NCBI RefSeq assembly: GCF_014217805.1
Contig: NZ_CP055156.1
Span: 5,400,585-5,464,584 of the forward strand
Direction: 5' to 3'
Length of the DNA: 64,000 nucleotides
From: Adhaeribacter swui
GTDB lineage: Bacteria > Bacteroidota > Bacteroidia > Cytophagales > Hymenobacteraceae
In this document: positions 18,302-33,783 of the stretch, piece after piece
Layout: each line of letters starts with the position of its first letter
How positions within the stretch are numbered: the first letter of the stretch is position 1
Translations under genes and position numbers: made by a program
The notes under the pieces: generated by a model
Seen by the model: the letters and a program-made list of their open reading frames with translations, nothing else
Database searches by the model: none
What the model was told of the DNA's origin: nothing

Positions 18302-18925
18302 ATGAGTACCAACGATAGCACTATTATGGAAACAACCAACTGTATTCAAACGCTGGAAATAGGAAATGCTTTGCTTACCGTAGAAGCCGATCGTTCCTTT
18401 GTTCAGTTAAGCTGGCAGCAATCCCCTACCGCCGAAGATTTAGCGTTAAGTGCGTCGGTAGTTAGTGAGTTTATCAAAGAAAATAACATAATTTACTTTC
18501 TGCACGATGTCCGGAATGTAATTTACACCGATATAAATTTACAAAGAACCTTTACTTCGGTTTTCTGCCCCCGGATTTTAACGGCTGGCGTGATTCGGTT
18601 TGTGCACCTGGCTAATTATGAACTACCCGAGTTATTGATTCTGGACGAAATTACCGCTTATATGCAACGTAAAGTTATAACCAATAAAGCCGTAAAAATG
18701 GAAATTTGTACTACGCCCGAAGGAGCCGCAGAATGGCTGAATAACTCTGGCGCAAAAAACACGATAGCACTAGCTCCGAAAAAGGTAAAAGAAGCTGCCG
18801 TAGAACAAGTGAGTTTCGAGTGGGCCGCCGCCGCGCAGGTAAGCTCCTCCTTAAAGCAATACAAAGACAAAGCCGCCATGGTGTTCCGGATTTTAGTAAA
18901 AGGCAAATCGTACTCTGAACTATAA
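18302..18925 (+). CDS. Hypothetical protein, possibly STAS-like fold
   Basis: An unrecognised 207-residue soluble protein. The first ~130 residues alternate predicted strands and helices with ILDE, VRFVHLANY and YFLHDVRNV segments, faintly recalling SpoIIAA/STAS-like domains found in Bacteroidota two-component contexts; this is only an impression. The C-terminal 75 residues are Ala/Lys-rich and helical. It has no signal peptide. It stands alone between a divergent SDR gene and a very strong terminator. Confidence 0.75.
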   Translation: MSTNDSTIMETTNCIQTLEIGNALLTVEADRSFVQLSWQQSPTAEDLALSASVVSEFIKENNIIYFLHDVRNVIYTDINLQRTFTSVFCPRILTAGVIRFVHLANYELPELLILDEITAYMQRKVITNKAVKMEICTTPEGAAEWLNNSGAKNTIALAPKKVKEAAVEQVSFEWAAAAQVSSSLKQYKDKAAMVFRILVKGKSYSEL

Positions 18926-22844: not shown

Positions 22845-24644
22845 ATGCTTTTACATGCCGGGCCGGTACAGGCACTCTACGATCGCGGTTTTTTGCGGTA
22901 CATGCAATCTGCCGACCACGAAATAGTACGAATGATTTACTTTGCCATTCGCGACCAGGATTGGCAAACCATGACGGGCTCTATTACTCATGAGCGCATC
23001 CAAACTACTCTCAATTCCTTTTCGATTAGTTATACGTACCACGTAAATGAGGATAATATCCGCATGGAGTGGCAAGTAAGTATAGTGGGTGAGCCCGATG
23101 GCACGATAACTTTTGATATTGATGGCGTGGCGCAAAGTAATTTTTTAAAAAACCGGGCAGGTTTCTGCGTACTACATCCGCTTACGGGTGTTTTGGGGCA
23201 AGCTTGCCGGATTGAACACCCCGATGGCAGTTTTAGTTACGGTACTTTCCCTACGTATATTAGTCCGCATCAACCGTTTTTAAACGTAAAAGCCATGGAA
23301 TGGCCGGTGGGCGGACAAGGTTTGGCAAGGTTAGAATTTAGCGGCGATATTTTTGAAACCGAAGATCAACGGAACTGGTCGGATGCGAGTTTTAAAACGT
23401 ATTGCACGCCGCAAAGCATTCCGTTTCCGGCCCAAGTAAACCAAGGCGACCAGATTAAACAGCAAGTTATTTTCCGGTTAGTTAAACCCATAGCTCCCGT
23501 CGTTAAAACAGCGCAACCAACAAACCAAATTACGGTGCAAAAGCAACTTGTACCTTTCCCGGCTATTGGCATTGGCCTGAATTTACAGGAAACGGAATTA
23601 GCCCCAGAGGAGCTTACATTTTTGCGCTCCGTAGGTTTTCAACACGCCAGAGCCGATATTTTCCTTAATCAGCAGAACGCACCGGAAGTATTGCAGCAAG
23701 CCATCGAGCAAAGCCACGACTTGCAACTGCCACTGGAATTAGCTTTGTATTTTGGCGAAGCGCCAGCCACCGAAGTTGGTAATCTGGTGCGTTTGCTACA
23801 ACAACACGCCATTAAGTTAGCGCGAATTTTATTGTTTAATGCTGATAGCCGGTACACGACCGATGTTTTGCTGCAAACTACCTTACCCGTTCTCCGGACG
23901 GCTTTTCCGGGTGTAGCCCTTGGCGGTGGTAGCGATGCGAATTTTACCGAGTTAAACCGGAATCCGTACAATTTCTCGGCTACTGATTTTGTTTCGTTTG
24001 CCCTTAATCCGCAGGTTCATGCTACCGATGATTTAACCTTAGTTGACAATGTTGCTGCCCAAGCCGATGCCGTTAAAAGCGCCCGGCATTTAGTTAATAA
24101 AATACCCGTTCTGGTTTCGCCGGTTACTTTAAAAGCCCGCTTTAATGAAGCAACTTCTGGTGAGTGGCCGCAACCTGCCCCCGCCGACCCGCGCCAACCT
24201 ACCGATTTTATTGCTACCTGGACCTTGGCCAGCCTCAAATACTTAGCCGAAGCAGGTGCCACCGCTATTACTTATTTTGAAACGCACGGAGCCAGCGGCA
24301 TTATTCAAAATAATACACCTTTTGCGGTAGCTCATTTATTTAAATTTATTTTGCACTACCAACCCAAACAAGTTATACCTACTTGTTATGCCAAACCCCT
24401 GGAAGTAAGTTCGCTGCTTTTAATAAAAGAAAACGCCGCCTGTTTTATTCTTGCTAATCATACGGCAGCACCGCAATCAGTTAGTATACCCGAAAATTTT
24501 ACCGTAGAGTCACACACCATTATAGGTTCGGCGGTAGGCCAATCCAGTTTTTTAAATTATTTGCCCGGTCAGCACCTTACACTTGCGGCGCATCAAATTA
24601 TTGCCCTAGATGGCACATGGCCCGTTGATTTTTTAAAAAAATAA
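22845..24644 (+). CDS. D-apionate lactonase-like protein
   Basis: A 599-residue protein whose middle part recalls D-apionate lactonase ApnL, which opens D-apionolactone in D-apiose catabolism. Seen: DQRNWSDASFKTYCTPQSIP (around residues 177-196), AVDNVAAQADAV-like helical stretches and a C-terminal all-beta region. No signal peptide, so it should be cytoplasmic. None of the other apiose genes (apnK, apnO, apsD) are adjacent, which weakens the pathway call. The ATG follows a strong AAGGAGG. If not ApnL, it is an uncharacterised glycoside-hydrolase-like lactonase. Confidence 0.6.
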   Translation: MLLHAGPVQALYDRGFLRYMQSADHEIVRMIYFAIRDQDWQTMTGSITHERIQTTLNSFSISYTYHVNEDNIRMEWQVSIVGEPDGTITFDIDGVAQSNFLKNRAGFCVLHPLTGVLGQACRIEHPDGSFSYGTFPTYISPHQPFLNVKAMEWPVGGQGLARLEFSGDIFETEDQRNWSDASFKTYCTPQSIPFPAQVNQGDQIKQQVIFRLVKPIAPVVKTAQPTNQITVQKQLVPFPAIGIGLNLQETELAPEELTFLRSVGFQHARADIFLNQQNAPEVLQQAIEQSHDLQLPLELALYFGEAPATEVGNLVRLLQQHAIKLARILLFNADSRYTTDVLLQTTLPVLRTAFPGVALGGGSDANFTELNRNPYNFSATDFVSFALNPQVHATDDLTLVDNVAAQADAVKSARHLVNKIPVLVSPVTLKARFNEATSGEWPQPAPADPRQPTDFIATWTLASLKYLAEAGATAITYFETHGASGIIQNNTPFAVAHLFKFILHYQPKQVIPTCYAKPLEVSSLLLIKENAACFILANHTAAPQSVSIPENFTVESHTIIGSAVGQSSFLNYLPGQHLTLAAHQIIALDGTWPVDFLKK

Positions 24645-25471: not shown

Positions 25472-25505
25472 AAGCCTCTGGTATAAAACGGAGGCTTTTC
25501 TTTTA
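25472..25505 (+). terminator. Rho-independent terminator
   Basis: AAGCCTC (25472-25478) pairs with GAGGCTT (25491-25497), with an additional G-U pair inside and a 10-base loop, followed by TTCTTTTAG. It separates the zinc-ribbon gene from the heme oxygenase. Confidence 0.75.
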
Positions 25506-25529: not shown

Positions 25530-26108
25530 ATGATTTTAGAAGCATTAAAGACACAAACTGCCGCTCAGCACCAGCAAGTAGAAGCCAGTTTGTTAATGCA
25601 GCCCATTGCCAACCGCACCTTAACTCCCGAAAACTATACGCGGATCTTGCGGAAATTTTACGGCTTTTTTCATCCTTTAGAAAATGCTATTCACCATTTA
25701 CCTGGTTTAGATAATTATTTGCCCGATATTATGGCTCGCCGCAAATCCGGCAGCATTTTGCAAGATTTACGCGCCATTCACCACGAGAGCATCACGCTTA
25801 CTACCCTACCGCTTTGCCCCGATGTGCCGCAAATTACCCAAATCAGCGAGGGCTTCGGCGCTTTATACGTAATGGAAGGCTCTACCCTGGGAGGCAAAAT
25901 TATCTCTAAAATTGTGTACGAAACCTTGGGCTATACCCCCGAACACGGCACTTCTTTTTTTAACGGCTATGGTTCGCAAACCGGCCCGAAATGGAAAGCC
26001 TTTCAGGAAGCGCTAACCCGGTTTGCGGTTACGCCGGCCCAGGAAAATGCCGTAGTACAAACCGCCATTCAAACATTTAAAAAATTAGAAAATTGGTTTA
26101 ATAGCTAG
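25530..26108 (+). CDS. bphO: Biliverdin-producing heme oxygenase
   Basis: Opens heme to biliverdin, CO and iron; biliverdin is the chromophore of bacteriophytochromes. It has 192 residues. Seen: the proximal heme ligand region TAAQHQQVE with H14, and the distal-helix block GFGALYVMEGSTLGGKI with the expected Gly-rich bend. It precedes the bacteriophytochrome gene by 13 bp, the usual bphO-bphP pairing, so the two are almost certainly co-transcribed and matched in function. Confidence 0.93.
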   Translation: MILEALKTQTAAQHQQVEASLLMQPIANRTLTPENYTRILRKFYGFFHPLENAIHHLPGLDNYLPDIMARRKSGSILQDLRAIHHESITLTTLPLCPDVPQITQISEGFGALYVMEGSTLGGKIISKIVYETLGYTPEHGTSFFNGYGSQTGPKWKAFQEALTRFAVTPAQENAVVQTAIQTFKKLENWFNS

Positions 26109-26121
26109 AAACAAGCGCCCC

Positions 26122-27660
26122 ATGAACATACCCACTTCCAAAAACTACGACTCTGACTTTTGCGGCAGTTTGCCTTTAAACTTTATTAACCTGGTACAAC
26201 CGCACGGTTTTATTTTGGTTCTTCAAAAAGAAACCCTCCTAATCCGGCAGCTAAGCGAGAACGTAGGTGATTTTTTAAAAATTGGGGCCAGCGAGTTGCT
26301 TCATCAGGAATTAGGTAAGTATGTATTGCCGGAACAAATAGAAATTATCCGGCATAAAACTCAGCAATGGAACATCGACGACCGGATTCCGGAAGAAATT
26401 ACTTTTAAAATAAACGATGTGGAAACAAAGTTTAGCGCGGTTATTCATTCCAAAGAAAATTACATTTTGCTGGAGCTGGAGCCCAGTTTGCCTTTAGCTG
26501 CCGGCGACCTCGACTTTGTGCATATTTACCAGGAGATTATGTTTATTCTGGCGGCTTTTAAAAAAGCCGATACCATTGAGAAGTTATGCCAGATTGCCGT
26601 TTCCGAAATTAAAAAATTATCGGGTTTCGACCGGGTTATGATTTACCAGTTTGATAAAAACTGGAACGGCACTGTTATAGCCGAAGCCATGGAAGAAGAT
26701 TTGCAATCTTACCTGAATTTATGTTTTCCGGCTTCGGATGTGCCCCGGAATGCCCGAGATTTATATTTAAAAAATCCGTTCCGGTTAATTCCAAACCGGG
26801 AGTATACTCCGGCCCGGCTCGTACCGGTTTTAAATCCTATTTCGTCTAATTTCACCGATTTATCAGATTGTAATTTGCGCAGTGTGGCTAACGTGCATTT
26901 GCAATATTTAAAAAATATGGGTGTACAGGCGTCAATGTCAACGCCTATTATTAAAGATAATGCACTTTGGGGCTTAATTTCCTGCCATCATAAATCGCCT
27001 AAATTTTTATCTTTCGAGATGCGCTCGGCCTTTGTGTTATTATCATCAATCATTTCGTCGCAGGTAGTAGCCAAAGAAAATGAACACAGTTTAGGGCGGG
27101 TTAACGAGTTAAACGAAGTTTTCACCAAGCTGCTTGCCCAAATGTACAACCAACTCGATTTCCGGCAGGGTTTGGTACAAGGCCAGTACACGCTCACCGA
27201 TTTATTTAACAGCTCCGGCGCTGCAATTGTACTGGACGGGGAAATTAAAAAAGTAGGCAACACCCCTAAAACCGATGAAATAAAAACCATTGTGCAGTGG
27301 CTGCAGCGCACCCGGGTTAATAAAATTCATACCACCGAAAACCTTCCGCAACATTTAGAACCGGCTAATACCTTTAAAGATTCGGCCAGCGGTTTAATTG
27401 CTTTGCCTATTGCCCTGGAAAGAGGCGATTATATATTGGGGTTCCGGAAAGAACTGGTACAAACCATTAAATGGGGCGGCGACCCGAACGAAGCCATTAC
27501 AATGGAACCCGATGGTAAAACTTACCACCCGCGCAACTCTTTTGCTGTTTGGCAAGAGCAAGTAAAAAACACGTCGTTACCGTGGTCAGAACAGGATATT
27601 TACATTGCCGAGCAGCTACGGATTGCAGTTTTAGAACGCCTGGTGAAAGATACCCATTAA
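26122..27660 (+). CDS. bphP: Bacteriophytochrome photosensory module (PAS-GAF-PHY) without output domain
   Basis: Red/far-red photoreceptor. The chromophore-binding Cys14 lies in DFCGSLPLN near the N-terminus, as in biliverdin-binding phytochromes. The GAF signature PASDVP is at 203-208, with conserved His259 in NVHLQYLKNMG and CHH at 288-290. The PHY tongue PRxSF motif is PRNSF at 470-474. The protein stops at 512, right at the end of the PHY helix, with no histidine kinase, GGDEF or other output. A full-length phytochrome of this type would continue into a kinase, so signalling must go through a partner; the large kinase downstream is the obvious candidate. Confidence 0.93.
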   Translation: MNIPTSKNYDSDFCGSLPLNFINLVQPHGFILVLQKETLLIRQLSENVGDFLKIGASELLHQELGKYVLPEQIEIIRHKTQQWNIDDRIPEEITFKINDVETKFSAVIHSKENYILLELEPSLPLAAGDLDFVHIYQEIMFILAAFKKADTIEKLCQIAVSEIKKLSGFDRVMIYQFDKNWNGTVIAEAMEEDLQSYLNLCFPASDVPRNARDLYLKNPFRLIPNREYTPARLVPVLNPISSNFTDLSDCNLRSVANVHLQYLKNMGVQASMSTPIIKDNALWGLISCHHKSPKFLSFEMRSAFVLLSSIISSQVVAKENEHSLGRVNELNEVFTKLLAQMYNQLDFRQGLVQGQYTLTDLFNSSGAAIVLDGEIKKVGNTPKTDEIKTIVQWLQRTRVNKIHTTENLPQHLEPANTFKDSASGLIALPIALERGDYILGFRKELVQTIKWGGDPNEAITMEPDGKTYHPRNSFAVWQEQVKNTSLPWSEQDIYIAEQLRIAVLERLVKDTH

Positions 27661-27941
27661 AGCAAATTGACCAATAAAACTTGCTTGCCTGTTTCCAAAC
27701 ATAAATCCGGTTTAATTGGTTATAATAATTATTTTATAACGATATATTTGCTTTATGTAAGGCTTAGTTACTGCGCCACCAGCATGGTAAATAAGCCTTA
27801 TTTTTAAAAATTCGATTAAAATCAGCTTTAATTTTAAAGAATGTATCCGTTGCACGCCGCTATTTTAAAATAAAGTGCTCCGGACTGTTACTCTGCTTAA
27901 GTTGATTCATGATTTAAGTTTTGAGGCTACGGCATATTAAA
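27661..27941. other. Intergenic gap between phytochrome and hybrid kinase
   Basis: About 280 AT-rich bases, so the kinase may have its own promoter or be reached by readthrough. No terminator hairpin was seen after the phytochrome stop, which keeps co-transcription possible. Confidence 0.4.
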
Positions 27942-30900
27942 ATGGATCCAAAATCAACTGCGCCTGATAATTTTTCTGAGTTCTCGTACCAGCCTTTTTC
28001 ATCCGATAAACGGCGATCTGATTCGGATTTTTTTGTAGTAGCTATTGGGGCTTCGGCGGGGGGCTTAGAGGCAATTAATGAGTTTTTCGATCATTTACCC
28101 GCCACTACCGATGCAGCCTTTGTTATTATACAGCATCTTTCGCCTACGCACAAAAGTTTAATGCCGGAATTGCTGGCCAAGCATACCACCATGAGTATTA
28201 GCGAAGCCAAAGATGGTTTAACCCTGCAACCAAACAGTATTTACCTGATTCCGAACAAAGCCATTTTAACAATCCAAAAAGGCAGATTAAGGCTTTCGGA
28301 AAAAATTCAGGCGCAGGTGCCCAATATGGCCATAGATACTTTTATGCAATCGTTGGCTAACGATAAAAAAGAAAAAAGTATTGGGGTAATTTTGTCAGGT
28401 ACTGGCAGCGATGGCACCCGTGGTTTAGAAGCCATTAAAGCCGTAGGGGGGCAAATAGTGGTACAAGACCCCACCACCGCCCATTTTGATGGTATGCCTA
28501 ACAGCGCCATTGCCACTGGTTTTGCCGATGCGGTATTGGCGCCCAAGCAAATGTCGACTTACCTGATTAAATACATTAACAACCACTTACTATTAAATAA
28601 TACGAATCTGGACGAAATGCAGGCCGGCAACAATGCCATAGTGGAAGAAATCCTAGAATTTGCCAAAGAAGCCTGTGATTTAGATTTTACCAACTACAAA
28701 CGGCCAACACTTTTCCGGCGGGTAGCCAAGCGCATGCTGGAAACCAACCACGATAGTTACGAAAAATACTTTACTTATTTAAAACAAAACAAAGAGGAAA
28801 TTCAACACCTCTGCGGCGAATTTTTAATTAACGTAACCCGGTTTTTTCGCGATGAGCGGGCCTTTGCCATCCTGGAAGAAAAAGTAATCCCGGAAATTGT
28901 CCGTTCTAAAAAAGCCGATGATTCCATAAAAATATGGGTAGCTGGCTGTAGCACCGGCGAAGAACCTTACTCGCTGGCGATGCTCCTGGACACGTATTTA
29001 GCTAAAATCCGGAGCCATGTGCCTGTTAAAATATTTGCTACCGATGTAGATAAACAAGCGCTGCACCTGGCTTCCCGGGGAGCTTATCCGGATGCCATTA
29101 CGCAGGTGCTCCCGCCGGCAATGCTGGCCAAGTATTTTGTGCGCCGCACCGATGATTATGTGGTTTGCGAGCACATCCGCAAGATGATTATTTTTGCGCA
29201 CCACGATGTTACCAAAGATGCCCCTTTTAGTAAAGTAGATTTAGTAAGCTGCCGGAACATGCTTATTTACATGGATGGCCCTTTGCAGCACAAAGTGTTA
29301 AATGCATTTCATTTTGCATTAACTGTTGGTGGATTTTTATTTTTAGGTCCTAGCGAAAACTTGGGAGTTATTAAACAATACTTTTCAGAAATAAGCCGTA
29401 AATGGAAAATTTACCGCAACCTGGAAGCTTCCCGGAGATCCGTACCCCAAAACATTACTGTACGTAAGCTACAGATAGACTCCCGCCCACCGGATACCGT
29501 GCGGGCAAAAAGTCCGAAACCTACTTTAATGCAACAGATCGGTGATATTTTTAATGCAGCATTGGTAGAGGAATTTAACTTCGCCGGCGTTTGCATCGAC
29601 GAAAATTACCGCCTGCTGCACGCTATAGGTAATTACAAAATGTATCTGGATTTGCCCGATTGGCAGCTAAATTTTAGCTTAACTAAAATGGTACCGGATG
29701 ATATTGCCGTGGCTATTGGAGCTTCGGTGCGCAAAGTGGCGAAAACCAAGCAAAAGTCTACGCTACGTAATCTTGAACTAACCATTAACGGCACTACCCG
29801 GTTAATCGATATTGTAATAAAACCTTATTTATCCGGCGAATTCAGCGAACGCTTTTTGTTTATTTTATTCAGCGAATCTATCCGGTCTAAAAATTATAAA
29901 GAAGCAAATGTAAGTACTTCTTATAACCAGCAAGATCAGATAAATGCGTTAGAACAAGAGTTAAACGAAACCAAAGAAAACCTATATACCACTTTCGAAG
30001 AGTTGGAAGTTTCGAACGAAGAACTGCAATCGAACAACGAAGAATTGCTGTCGGCGAACGAAGAGCTGCAAAGCACCAACGAAGAACTGCAATCGCTCAA
30101 CGAAGAATTGCATACGGTTAATACCGAGCATCAGCAAAAAATAAAAGAGTTAATAGAGCTGAACGAAGATATGGATAACTATTTTCGGAACGCCGATATT
30201 GGACAGATGTTCGTGGACCAACAACTAACCATTCGGAAGTTTACGCCCGCCATTATAAATCAGATTAATTTAATTCCGAATGACATTGGCCGGCCTTTAG
30301 CGCATTTTTCTAATAACCTGAAGTACGATCGATTAATTGACGATATTAAAGAAGTAATTGACACCGGCGCCCGCATAGAAAAAGAAATTCAGCTACGCAC
30401 CGGCAGTTACTTTCTGATGCGCCTGGTACCTTATCTGAAACAAAATAATAAAATTGATGGGGTAGTTATTACGTTTGTGGATGTAACCCTGTTAAAAAAC
30501 CTGAATAATACCTTAGAAGGTATTTTAAACAGTTCCATTAACGGCATTATTGCGCTTAAATCTGTCCGTAACCAAAACAATCAAATCGTTGATTTTGAAT
30601 GGTCGATGGCGAACGAAGCCACCGGCCACATGTTTAAAAAAGATCCGGGAAGTTTGATTGGAAATAGTTTACTGGAAGAATTACCCGGCATGAAAAAAAG
30701 CCGCTTGTTTAACCGGTTTGTTCAGGTAGTGGCCACCGGCGAATTATTAAACCTGGAACATTACTATAACTATGATGGTATTGAAACCTGGTTTCAGACG
30801 GTAGCGGCTAAAGTAGAGGATGGCTTAACGGTTACCTTTGCCGATATTACCGAAAAAAAACTGGCCAGCCAAAACTTACTAACTGCTTACCAGGAGTTAC

Positions 30901-32066
30901 AGGCGGCAGAAGAAAATTTAAAAAAATTAAATAATCAGCTAGAAGAACGTATTATTGATCGTACGCGCGAGTTATCGTCGAGCGAAGAACGCTTCCGGCT
31001 GATTTCGTTGGCTACCAACGATGCCATCTGGGACTGGACTTTGATTGATAATAAGCTGTGGTGGAACGAAGGCTTTAAAATTATGTTTGCCTACACCACC
31101 GAAGAAATTGAACCCGGGGTAGAGTCATGGTTCCAGCGCATCCATCCCGAAGATAAAGAACGAATTATTGCCAGCGTAAACGAAGCCATAAACCAAAGTC
31201 AGGAACAATGGTCGGCGGAGTACCGCTTCCGGAAAGCCGACGATACCTATGCTTATGTGTTTAACCGGGCTTTTATTATTCTGAACGAAAATGGGGTGGC
31301 TTATCGCATGTTGGGCTCTTTGCTGGATTTAACAAATTTAAAATTAGCCCAGGAAGAACTGCGCAAAACCAACGCCGATTTAATCCGGATAAATAACGAC
31401 CTGGATAACTTTGTTTACACGGCTTCCCACGATTTAAAATCGCCAATCTCTAACATCGAAGGTTTATTGTATCACCTGGAAGTAGAATTAGCCGATGCCG
31501 ACGAAAATGTACTCGAAATTTTAAACCATATTAAAAAATCAGTGGACAGGTTTAAGGTAACGATAAAAGATCTTACTGAAATTTCGAAGGTAGATAAAAT
31601 TCAGTACGACGACGTAACCGAAATTAACGTGGAAGAACTGCTCGATGATATTAAACTCAGCATTAATAACTTAATCGAAGATTCTCACGCTAAAATTGAG
31701 GCGCATTGCGAAACTTGCCCAACCATTAAATTTTCCCGCCGCAACCTGCGCAGCATTTTATATAATTTACTCAGCAACTCTATAAAATACCGCGATTTTC
31801 ACCGGCCGGTTAAAATAAAAGTTACTACCCAAAAAACCCCGGAGTATTCTGTTTTAATTGTAGAAGATAATGGCTTAGGCATAGACGAAGCTTACCAGAC
31901 TAAGTTATTTAGCATGTTTAAGCGTTTTCATAACCATGTAGATGGCTCTGGCATTGGTTTGTATATCGTGAATAAAATTGTAGAAAACGCAGGCGGTAAA
32001 ATAGAAGTAGAAAGCAAAGTAGATAAAGGCACTACGTTTAAGATTTTTTTAAAAAATACCGATTAA
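27942..32066 (+). CDS. CheB-CheR-PAS sensor histidine kinase
   Basis: A 1374-residue multidomain signalling protein, numbered from the ATG at 27942 (the longer frame opens with TTG). Order: CheB methylesterase domain with S38 (GASAGG), H65 (QHLS) and D157 (GSDGTRGL); CheR methyltransferase with SAM motif GCSTGEE (335-341); a long coiled coil of NEELQS repeats (about 668-740); three PAS regions (about 745-1140); HisKA with phospho-acceptor H1163 in [12 protein letters not shown]; and HATPase with EDNGLGI and GSGIGLYIV. No receiver domain and no membrane segment. It is the typical free-standing kinase that could serve the output-less phytochrome. Confidence 0.95.
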
Positions 32067-32073
32067 TCTATTT

Positions 32074-32118
32074 CAAAAAAAAGAAAGGCCGCTCTACCGA
32101 GTGGCCTTTCTTTTTTTG
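32074..32118. terminator. Bidirectional terminator
   Basis: AAAAGAAAGGCC (ending 32090) pairs with GGCCTTTCTTTT (from 32103), with further pairs CTC/GAG inside and a 4-base loop. A-rich on the left and T-rich on the right, between converging genes ending at 32066 and 32135. Confidence 0.85.
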
Positions 32119-32693: not shown

Positions 32694-32723
32694 ATTTTGC
32701 TAATATAATTATATTAGCAAAAT
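32694..32723. promoter_or_regulatory. Perfect 30-bp palindrome overlapping a start codon
   Basis: ATTTTGCTAATATAA (32694-32708) is exactly repeated in inverse at 32709-32723, with no spacer; the last two bases are the AT of the ATG at 32722. The left arm contains TATATTTT, one base from the TAnnTTTG -7 element. It could be a repressor operator covering promoter and start, or an mRNA hairpin hiding the start codon. Confidence 0.75.
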
Positions 32724-33783
32724 GGAAGAACAAACGTATTTTAAGGGCCGGGGCGCTCAGTTGAACCCCAGCAACCGGTTCCGACAAAATGAATATGTAA
32801 CCGACCATGTAGAAGGCCTGGATGGACCTTTATTGCAAAATTCTAAAACAGAATACTACACCGAAAATCCAAAAAAGATCATTAACAAAGTGACCAGTCC
32901 GGATTTAGGCCTTTCGTATTCTATGAACCCTTACCAAGGCTGTGAACATGGCTGCATCTACTGTTATGCCCGCAACACGCACGAGTATTGGGGTTATAGC
33001 GCCGGCTTAGATTTTGAAAGAAAAATAATTATTAAAGAAAACGCGCCCGAAACCTTAGCTGCTCAGCTAGAGAACCCGAACTGGAAGGTTATGCCTTTGA
33101 TGCTGTCTGGCAATACCGATTGTTACCAACCCATTGAGCAAAAAATGCAACTTACCCGGCGCATGCTGCAGGTGCTCCTGCAATACCGGCATCCGGTAAG
33201 TATTATTACTAAAAACGCCTTAATCTTACGCGATTTAGATATTCTGCGCCAACTCGACCAACTTAACCTGCTGCACGTAAATATTTCACTCACTACCCTT
33301 AACGAAGAGCTTAGAAGCAAATTAGAGCCGCGCACCGCCTCCGCGGCAAAACGCTTAGCAGTTATTCAAAAATTAAGCGAAGCAGGCATTTCGGTAAACG
33401 TGATGGTGGCCCCCATTATTCCGGGCTTAAACGATCACGAAATTCCGAAACTGCTGCAACAGGCCGCGGCTCACGGGGCCTCGTCGGCAGCCTATACCAT
33501 TGTGCGGTTAAATGGCTCGATAGGGGAAATTTTTAGAAATTGGGTGCACCAAAACTATCCGGACCGGGCCGATAAAGTGCTAAACCAAATTGCCGCCTGC
33601 CATGGAGGCCAGATTAACGATAGTACTTACGGCCGGCGAATGACCGGTGAGGGCGAATGGGCGACCACCATTAGTAATTTGTTTCGGGTAACCAAAGCAA
33701 AATACCTACAGGGCCGCCAAATGAAACCTTACAATTATAGTTTATTTTGTACCAAGGCCGGCAAACAACTCCGTTTATTCTGA
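32722..33783 (+). CDS. PA0069-family radical SAM protein (SplB superfamily)
   Basis: Radical SAM protein, 353 residues. The cluster motif CEHGCIYC (C74, C78, C81) is followed by YARNTHEYWGY, the signature of the PA0069 family, a branch of the SplB/COG1533 superfamily. Also seen: SGNTDCYQPIE, VNVMVAPIIPGLND and TYGRRMTGEGEWA. The function of this family is unknown; DNA lesion repair has been suggested by its relation to SPL. It is a single gene whose start lies inside a perfect palindrome. Confidence 0.9.
   Translation: MEEQTYFKGRGAQLNPSNRFRQNEYVTDHVEGLDGPLLQNSKTEYYTENPKKIINKVTSPDLGLSYSMNPYQGCEHGCIYCYARNTHEYWGYSAGLDFERKIIIKENAPETLAAQLENPNWKVMPLMLSGNTDCYQPIEQKMQLTRRMLQVLLQYRHPVSIITKNALILRDLDILRQLDQLNLLHVNISLTTLNEELRSKLEPRTASAAKRLAVIQKLSEAGISVNVMVAPIIPGLNDHEIPKLLQQAAAHGASSAAYTIVRLNGSIGEIFRNWVHQNYPDRADKVLNQIAACHGGQINDSTYGRRMTGEGEWATTISNLFRVTKAKYLQGRQMKPYNYSLFCTKAGKQLRLF

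Follow-up and report, generated by a model that had tools for sequence, protein, structure and literature searches.

A phytochrome without an output domain and a large CheB-CheR-PAS kinase are encoded next to each other in Adhaeribacter swui. The window analyzed here is a stretch of 64,000 nt from this genome (GCF_014217805.1, NZ_CP055156.1:5,400,585-5,464,584, forward strand), and all positions below are window positions unless a locus is named. Three genes on its plus strand are of concern. bphO (25530-26108) encodes a heme oxygenase for biliverdin synthesis (PF01126, 69 bits), bphP (26122-27660) encodes the phytochrome and lies 13 nt further downstream, as a preliminary description of the locus had stated, and the kinase is encoded by 27942-32066. 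The latter two proteins probably constitute a split phytochrome two-component system in which BphP controls a dedicated kinase in trans.

BphP is a protein of 512 amino acids containing PAS_2 (26173-26484), GAF (26575-27024), and PHY (27121-27645) only, and all three are above their Pfam cut-offs. It ends four residues past the PHY match in a helix (residues 490-511), and no domain follows PHY. The predicted model (mean predicted local distance difference test, pLDDT, 82.8) matches PAS-GAF-PHY structures including those of Cph1, Agp1, and Deinococcus BphP. Cys14 (codon 26161-26163) and the tested residues of the phytochrome motifs PASDVP and PRxSF are invariant in 41 of 41 sequences; this set, used for all residue comparisons with this number, consists of the window and 40 loci from the family. 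H290 varies, being Asn in four of the 41. Both the Pfam matches and the residues are in accordance with the first reading of the sequence, which had found Cys14, PASDVP, and PRNSF in a protein ending after PHY. BphP reaches 279 of the 1040 bits required by the NCBIfam model for BphP histidine kinases (NF041576), and no output domain is present. Judged by domains and motifs, BphP is a bacteriophytochrome photosensory module, and it is predicted to bind a bilin and to photoconvert. The genome also encodes a phytochrome of 745 amino acids (L002:1474-3711) that has PAS-GAF-PHY followed by a kinase end and is 30% identical to BphP.

In the kinase, Pfam recognizes a CheB methylesterase domain (28038-28562; PF01339, 188 bits), a CheR methyltransferase composed of CheR_N and CheR (28644-29408; PF03705, PF01739), a PAS region (30171-31316) with PAS_10 (30171-30488), PAS_4 (30594-30860), and PAS_3 (31056-31316), and a catalytic region (31404-32057) with HisKA (31404-31595) and HATPase_c (31740-32057). 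The HisKA match of 26.3 bits is just below its cut-off of 26.9. A predicted model covers residues 34-870 (mean pLDDT 70, predicted template modeling score 0.33), and its strands and helices were assigned by us. By our reading residues 536-652 (29526-29876), which have no Pfam match, form a fourth PAS-like domain in the model, while residues 670-757 (29928-30191) are modeled as a single helix of 88 residues. CheB, CheR, three PAS regions, and a long coil, all noticed earlier from the sequence, are thereby recovered in the Pfam domains and the modeled helix. The HisKA residue H1170 and the ATP-site residues N1286, D1316, and G1344 are invariant in 41 of 41 loci.

It might be that the CheB and CheR domains no longer are enzymes and only aid assembly, so that the system would be a plain split two-component system. 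No substrate is known, and two of the nine CheR positions tested vary, R307 (Arg in 18 of 41) and G342 (Gly in four of 41). However, the CheB triad (S45, H72, D164) and the seven other CheR positions (F308, E347, E348, D375, R445, N446, Y450) are invariant in all 41 loci, and conservation of CheB (58%) and CheR (50%) is similar to that of the kinase domains. Loss of both activities is thus decidedly unlikely.

The gap between bphP and the kinase gene had been described as free of terminators. This did not hold, as a terminator-like hairpin (27757-27801) followed by a T run, together 27757-27806 on the plus strand, is found here. The stretch was chosen by eye and then folded, giving -19.2 kcal/mol with a z-score of -4.1, and none of 200 shuffles was equally stable. 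A simple terminator scan had missed it because the loop exceeds the limit of the scan. The hairpin is not kept in the three nearest relatives, where L035 has a different hairpin and L036 and L037 have none that is convincing. The argument from transcription for a bphP-kinase unit therefore fails in this genome, though most relatives have short gaps. The scan did find a terminator-like hairpin upstream of bphO (25472-25497; -14.7 kcal/mol, z -3.6), and another is located downstream of the kinase gene (32076-32117; -28.6 kcal/mol, z -7.9), both on the plus strand. A search against Rfam gave nothing above the gathering score. The open reading frame (ORF) of the kinase opens at a TTG codon (27921), but the ATG at 27942 is the more likely start, since the corresponding Met8 is an invariant column in a 12-row alignment and the ATG is retained in the three nearest relatives.

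Conservation in relatives had been named beforehand as a check that could refute the proposed unit. A sample of 150 genomes from the family was searched with BphP and with a profile of the kinase, and the best matches were listed. A phytochrome was found in 129 of the genomes. In 66 the best phytochrome match is short (lowest score 501.8 bits), and the next match listed has 333 bits and lies in a frame of 768 amino acids. The kinase profile matches in every genome, but gives more than 2000 bits in only 66 (lowest 2069, next 1298). The output-less phytochrome and the orthologous kinase are found in the identical 66 genomes, and neither is found in the other 84. In all 66 the genes share contig and strand, with the kinase downstream, and the aligned ends are separated by 47-434 nt, in 58 cases by at most 150 nt. 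When 40 of the other 65 family loci were compared, the kinase was the next gene in every one, while the outer neighbors differed. Some genomes lack the pair although their genera otherwise have it, namely G029 and G034 (the latter 78% complete) from the window's genus, G032 from g6, and G008 and G033 from g3. The proposed unit passed this check, and measured by its conservation the arrangement is far beyond chance.

The same pair is found outside the family. In a sample of 291 genomes from the order, all 12 short homologs of at least 40% identity found outside the family are paired, and in 395 genomes from the phylum, where at most three candidates per genome were scored and some may be missed, both further strong short matches are paired. 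The gene order is reversed in L079-L081 and L086, all from one genus, which have kinase, bphP, bphO, and receiver in that order. The kinase is split into several ORFs in L077, and in L086 both genes of the pair are split; L086 was scored as having no pair by the automatic test because of its broken ORFs and was counted as paired. Named genomes were scanned as well, giving 80 loci among the matches listed, which is no measure of abundance; L128, L140, L149, L154, L157, and L163 were not judged as no BphP ORF was called in them. The best 22 of these listed loci (L095-L116) all have an output-less phytochrome followed by a CheB-CheR protein and belong to Pontibacter, Mucilaginibacter, Pedobacter, Sphingobacterium, Flavisolibacter, and Flavipsychrobacter, with L101 ending before the kinase domain. 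The scan also gave Chitinophaga sedimenti (L173), where the pair is present with broken frames. Most of the lower-ranked matches, which are mainly from cyanobacteria and alphaproteobacteria, represent ordinary phytochrome kinases, and a receiver adjoins many of them. The locus sets overlap, as at least L095, L096, and L100 are the same as L052, L059, and L069. A fusion of BphP with CheB and CheR was not seen among the long order-sample frames L085, L087, L089, and L093, in which BLAST gave kinase-like matches only. L085 encodes a protein of 2431 amino acids where the phytochrome module is directly followed by a kinase-like stretch, with ~1700 residues outside these two parts.

A tree built from 54 phytochromes puts the 34 that are paired into a single group, with a support of 81 in the Shimodaira-Hasegawa-like approximate likelihood ratio test (SH-aLRT) and of 100 when L087, a fused BphP kinase, is included. 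The tree of 53 CheB-CheR proteins likewise places the 33 linked ones in one group apart from the 20 unlinked (SH-aLRT 88). Both are quick builds for which SH-aLRT is the only support value. Subgroups mostly agree between the two trees, while L075-L076 are placed differently. The simplest history is a single origin, where the kinase part of a phytochrome was lost and this CheB-CheR kinase became its fixed partner; the pair would then have been co-inherited and sometimes co-lost.

These results, with the pair present in 66 of the 150 genomes from the family, recurring beyond it in further families and orders, and reversed in gene order in one genus, give strong support by genomic linkage to the earlier proposal that an output-less phytochrome works with a kinase in trans. 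Adjacency reflects functional linkage and not contact, and the two proteins might be co-inherited because they share a pathway, with BphP acting elsewhere and the kinase sensing through its own PAS domains. The kinase does have three such domains, and the hairpin between the genes in the window would fit this as well. On the other hand, BphP lacks an output domain of its own, and only the kinase is always present as a partner. No third gene is constant around the pair, the widest neighbor groups in the 60 loci compared being receivers (a mixed group, 16 loci) and bphO (15 loci). A shared pathway without contact is therefore quite unlikely.

In the split system favored here, BphP would sense red and far-red light through a bound bilin, and its C-terminal helix ends at the point from which other phytochromes continue into a kinase. 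It would act in trans on one dedicated cytoplasmic kinase. The PAS and coil region is the most likely docking site, and docking would set the kinase or phosphatase activity. The linked kinases contain no receiver domain in either locus set (the main set and the named-genome set), and the phosphate must therefore go to a separate receiver, which may be the one encoded nearby in some relatives. Single-domain receivers are encoded at most 1 kb from the pair in 12 of 53 main-set and three of 22 named loci, for instance in L052, L062, and L079. Both their side and their strand vary, and their presence suggests a CheY-like partner. In the window no receiver-like gene was found within 18001-40000, in line with what had been reported. 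The bphO gene is at most two genes away from bphP in 11 of 53 main-set and two of 22 named loci, and it is thus outside the conserved core of the pair.

CheR would probably methylate glutamate residues and CheB demethylate them, most likely in the heptad coil of the kinase itself, and such methylation could give adaptation to background light. The coil is built from NEELQS heptads in which the Glu pairs 700/701, 707/708, 714/715, 721/722, and 728/729 are invariant in 12 aligned kinases. EELQST resembles the methylated glutamate pairs of methyl-accepting chemotaxis proteins (MCPs), which have the consensus E-E-x-x-A/S-S/T. When 14 genomes were searched for the coil, 49 places were found, of which 30 had loci and 29 were examined; L209, which has no frame, and three strong places without a locus were left out of the comparison. 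All 21 matches with an E-value of at most 1e-10 are in frames with both CheB and CheR, as opposed to none of the eight weaker ones. That the coil accompanies CheB-CheR fits a substrate within the same molecule, and the coil appears to be at least as good a target candidate as a separate partner.

CheB and CheR might instead act on the chemoreceptor of the cell, and light would then tune a chemosensory array. Exactly one MCPsignal match, located elsewhere in the genome, was found in each of the 28 pair genomes tested. In A. swui this MCP comprises 1737 amino acids with 13 HAMP stretches and is followed by genes for CheW, CheA, and CheC (L175:339-9077, C3, ~4.34 Mb), and the four proteins scanned from this cluster gave no match to CheB or CheR. 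However, the genome encodes two further CheB proteins, the pair was never shown to be linked to the MCP cluster, and the heptad coil that accompanies CheB and CheR is part of the same polypeptide. Such a role is unlikely. An unknown partner of CheB/CheR, as suggested in the preliminary description, may thus exist, with the MCP as a potential partner, but the coil of the kinase is at least an equal candidate. A separate locus, L176:4427-13812, encodes a CheB protein of 348 amino acids and then a CheB-CheR protein of 2705 amino acids that combines HisKA_3-HATPase with numerous PAS and GAF domains.

The source of the chromophore differs between genomes. PF01126 heme oxygenases were found in 47 of the 150 family genomes and a small ABM-domain protein (PF03992) in 70, for instance in L038:4350-4649 and L067:13027-13323 in addition to 68 other family genomes; the two never occur together. 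Two weak ABM matches (E-values 2e-4 and 4e-4) were excluded from these counts. The ABM protein is encoded in 62 of the 66 pair genomes, and the remaining four encode a heme oxygenase. The 63 other phytochrome genomes have a heme oxygenase in 43 cases, the ABM protein in six, and neither in 14, but since many PF01126 matches in these genomes are near the threshold, divergent heme oxygenases may be missed. Of the 21 genomes without phytochrome, none has a heme oxygenase and two have the ABM protein. Among the matches listed, the ABM gene lies at most 3 kb from the pair in 20 genomes, and in another 13 it lies that close to an ordinary phytochrome. Heme-degrading monooxygenases are among its matches in the PDB, and the best NCBIfam match is HmuQ, below its cut-off. 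The available part of a description of IsdG gives its triad as Asn, Trp, and His (PMC6018153). Trp and His are present in the ABM protein, while Ser occupies the Asn position in 11 of 11 aligned sequences, which makes a full IsdG-type enzyme less likely. The ABM protein is a candidate alternative source of bilin, and the switch between heme oxygenase and ABM protein may rest on few evolutionary events.

Taken to its full extent the proposal would describe a self-adapting phytochrome, that is, a soluble red-light receptor complex in which the kinase itself supplies the methyltransferase, the methylesterase, and the methyl-accepting coil, and where the bilin often is made by the ABM protein in place of a BphO-type heme oxygenase. 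This is tentative and somewhat unlikely. For the split system as such, several observations weigh on the other side. The support is from sequence and linkage, and the pair counts are not independent because the genomes are related. In A. swui the pair is interrupted by a terminator-like hairpin, the genome encodes an ordinary phytochrome kinase as well, and no receiver is found near the pair; 41 of the 53 main-set loci likewise lack a receiver within 1 kb. Two CheR positions vary, as given above. The NEELQS coil is also found in CheB-CheR proteins not linked to phytochromes, and there is therefore nothing about it that is specific to light. Three output-less phytochromes of another lineage (L090-L092, ~30% identity) have no CheB-CheR neighbor.

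The phytochromes of L090 (2551-5572), L091, and L092 (5103-8843) are a second kind of output-less phytochrome with bphO nearby. L090 and L092 also have small neighbors; the one in L092 gives 24.4 bits to a SpoIIAA-like family, just under the cut-off of 25. L092 further encodes a protein of 376 amino acids where a heme oxygenase is joined to ~145 additional residues. In the window, a protein of 207 amino acids without a Pfam match (18302-18925) looks by eye like these small SpoIIAA-like neighbors. The protein encoded by 22845-24644 (599 amino acids) resembles D-apionate lactonase, with a score of 298 bits that is below the cut-off of 750. Downstream of the pair, 32722-33783 encodes a PA0069 family radical SAM protein (498 bits, above the cut-off), and judged by length and position this gene follows the pair in the three nearest relatives as well.

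If the split reading is correct, Bacteroidota would possess a widespread light-signaling system with a naturally separate sensor and kinase. The passing of a signal from phytochrome to kinase would become testable with two soluble proteins, which might also serve as an optogenetic pair. A function would be provided for CheB-CheR-PAS kinases, for which no role was found in the literature searched, and chemotaxis-style methylation would be suggested outside chemoreceptors. Were the self-adapting version to be true as well, sensitivity would be reset to the background light inside one complex. No description of the bphP-kinase pair was found in the open literature, but most subscription journals and preprints were not covered, and a prior report is possible. 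In its available part, a phylogeny of phytochromes took in only kinase-bearing proteins (PMC4422448).

We infer that the pair is a phytochrome two-component system divided between two proteins with built-in CheB and CheR; here the linkage is solid. The bacteriophytochrome histidine kinases such as BphP and Cph1 share with it the PAS-GAF-PHY sensor, a HisKA-type kinase, and sometimes an adjoining bphO or a nearby receiver, but in the pair the sensor and the kinase are separate proteins, and the kinase bears CheB, CheR, and PAS domains. CheB-CheR-PAS kinases that are not linked to a phytochrome show the same succession of CheB, CheR, NEELQS coil, and PAS and are found in the same genomes. They are, however, on separate branches of the tree, and the linked type is distinguished by full-length scores above 2000 bits as compared to 1298 for the next. 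The short light-oxygen-voltage (LOV) photoreceptors resemble BphP in having no attached effector, and they are presumed, in the available part of the source, to signal in trans (PMC6798134). These use flavin and respond to blue light, while the partner kinase of BphP is identified by conserved linkage. Ppr from Rhodocista centenaria (Rhodospirillum centenum) is another phytochrome-type sensor tied to chemotaxis, and its kinase domain binds CheW (PMC2993699). It is a single fusion of photoactive yellow protein, phytochrome, and kinase, and no CheB or CheR domain is described for it in the available part of that publication. The closest functional analogy is to the sensory rhodopsins and their Htr transducers, where photoreceptor and output protein are separate yet paired. 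A role for CheB/CheR in a light "memory" has been suggested for Htr in the accessible parts of two publications (PMC6798134, PMC5812497). Sensory rhodopsins and Htr differ from the pair in using retinal and in being membrane proteins, and Htr is itself an MCP, with CheA as a further protein and CheB and CheR separate, while in the kinase paired with BphP the CheB, CheR, and kinase domains are found in one polypeptide.

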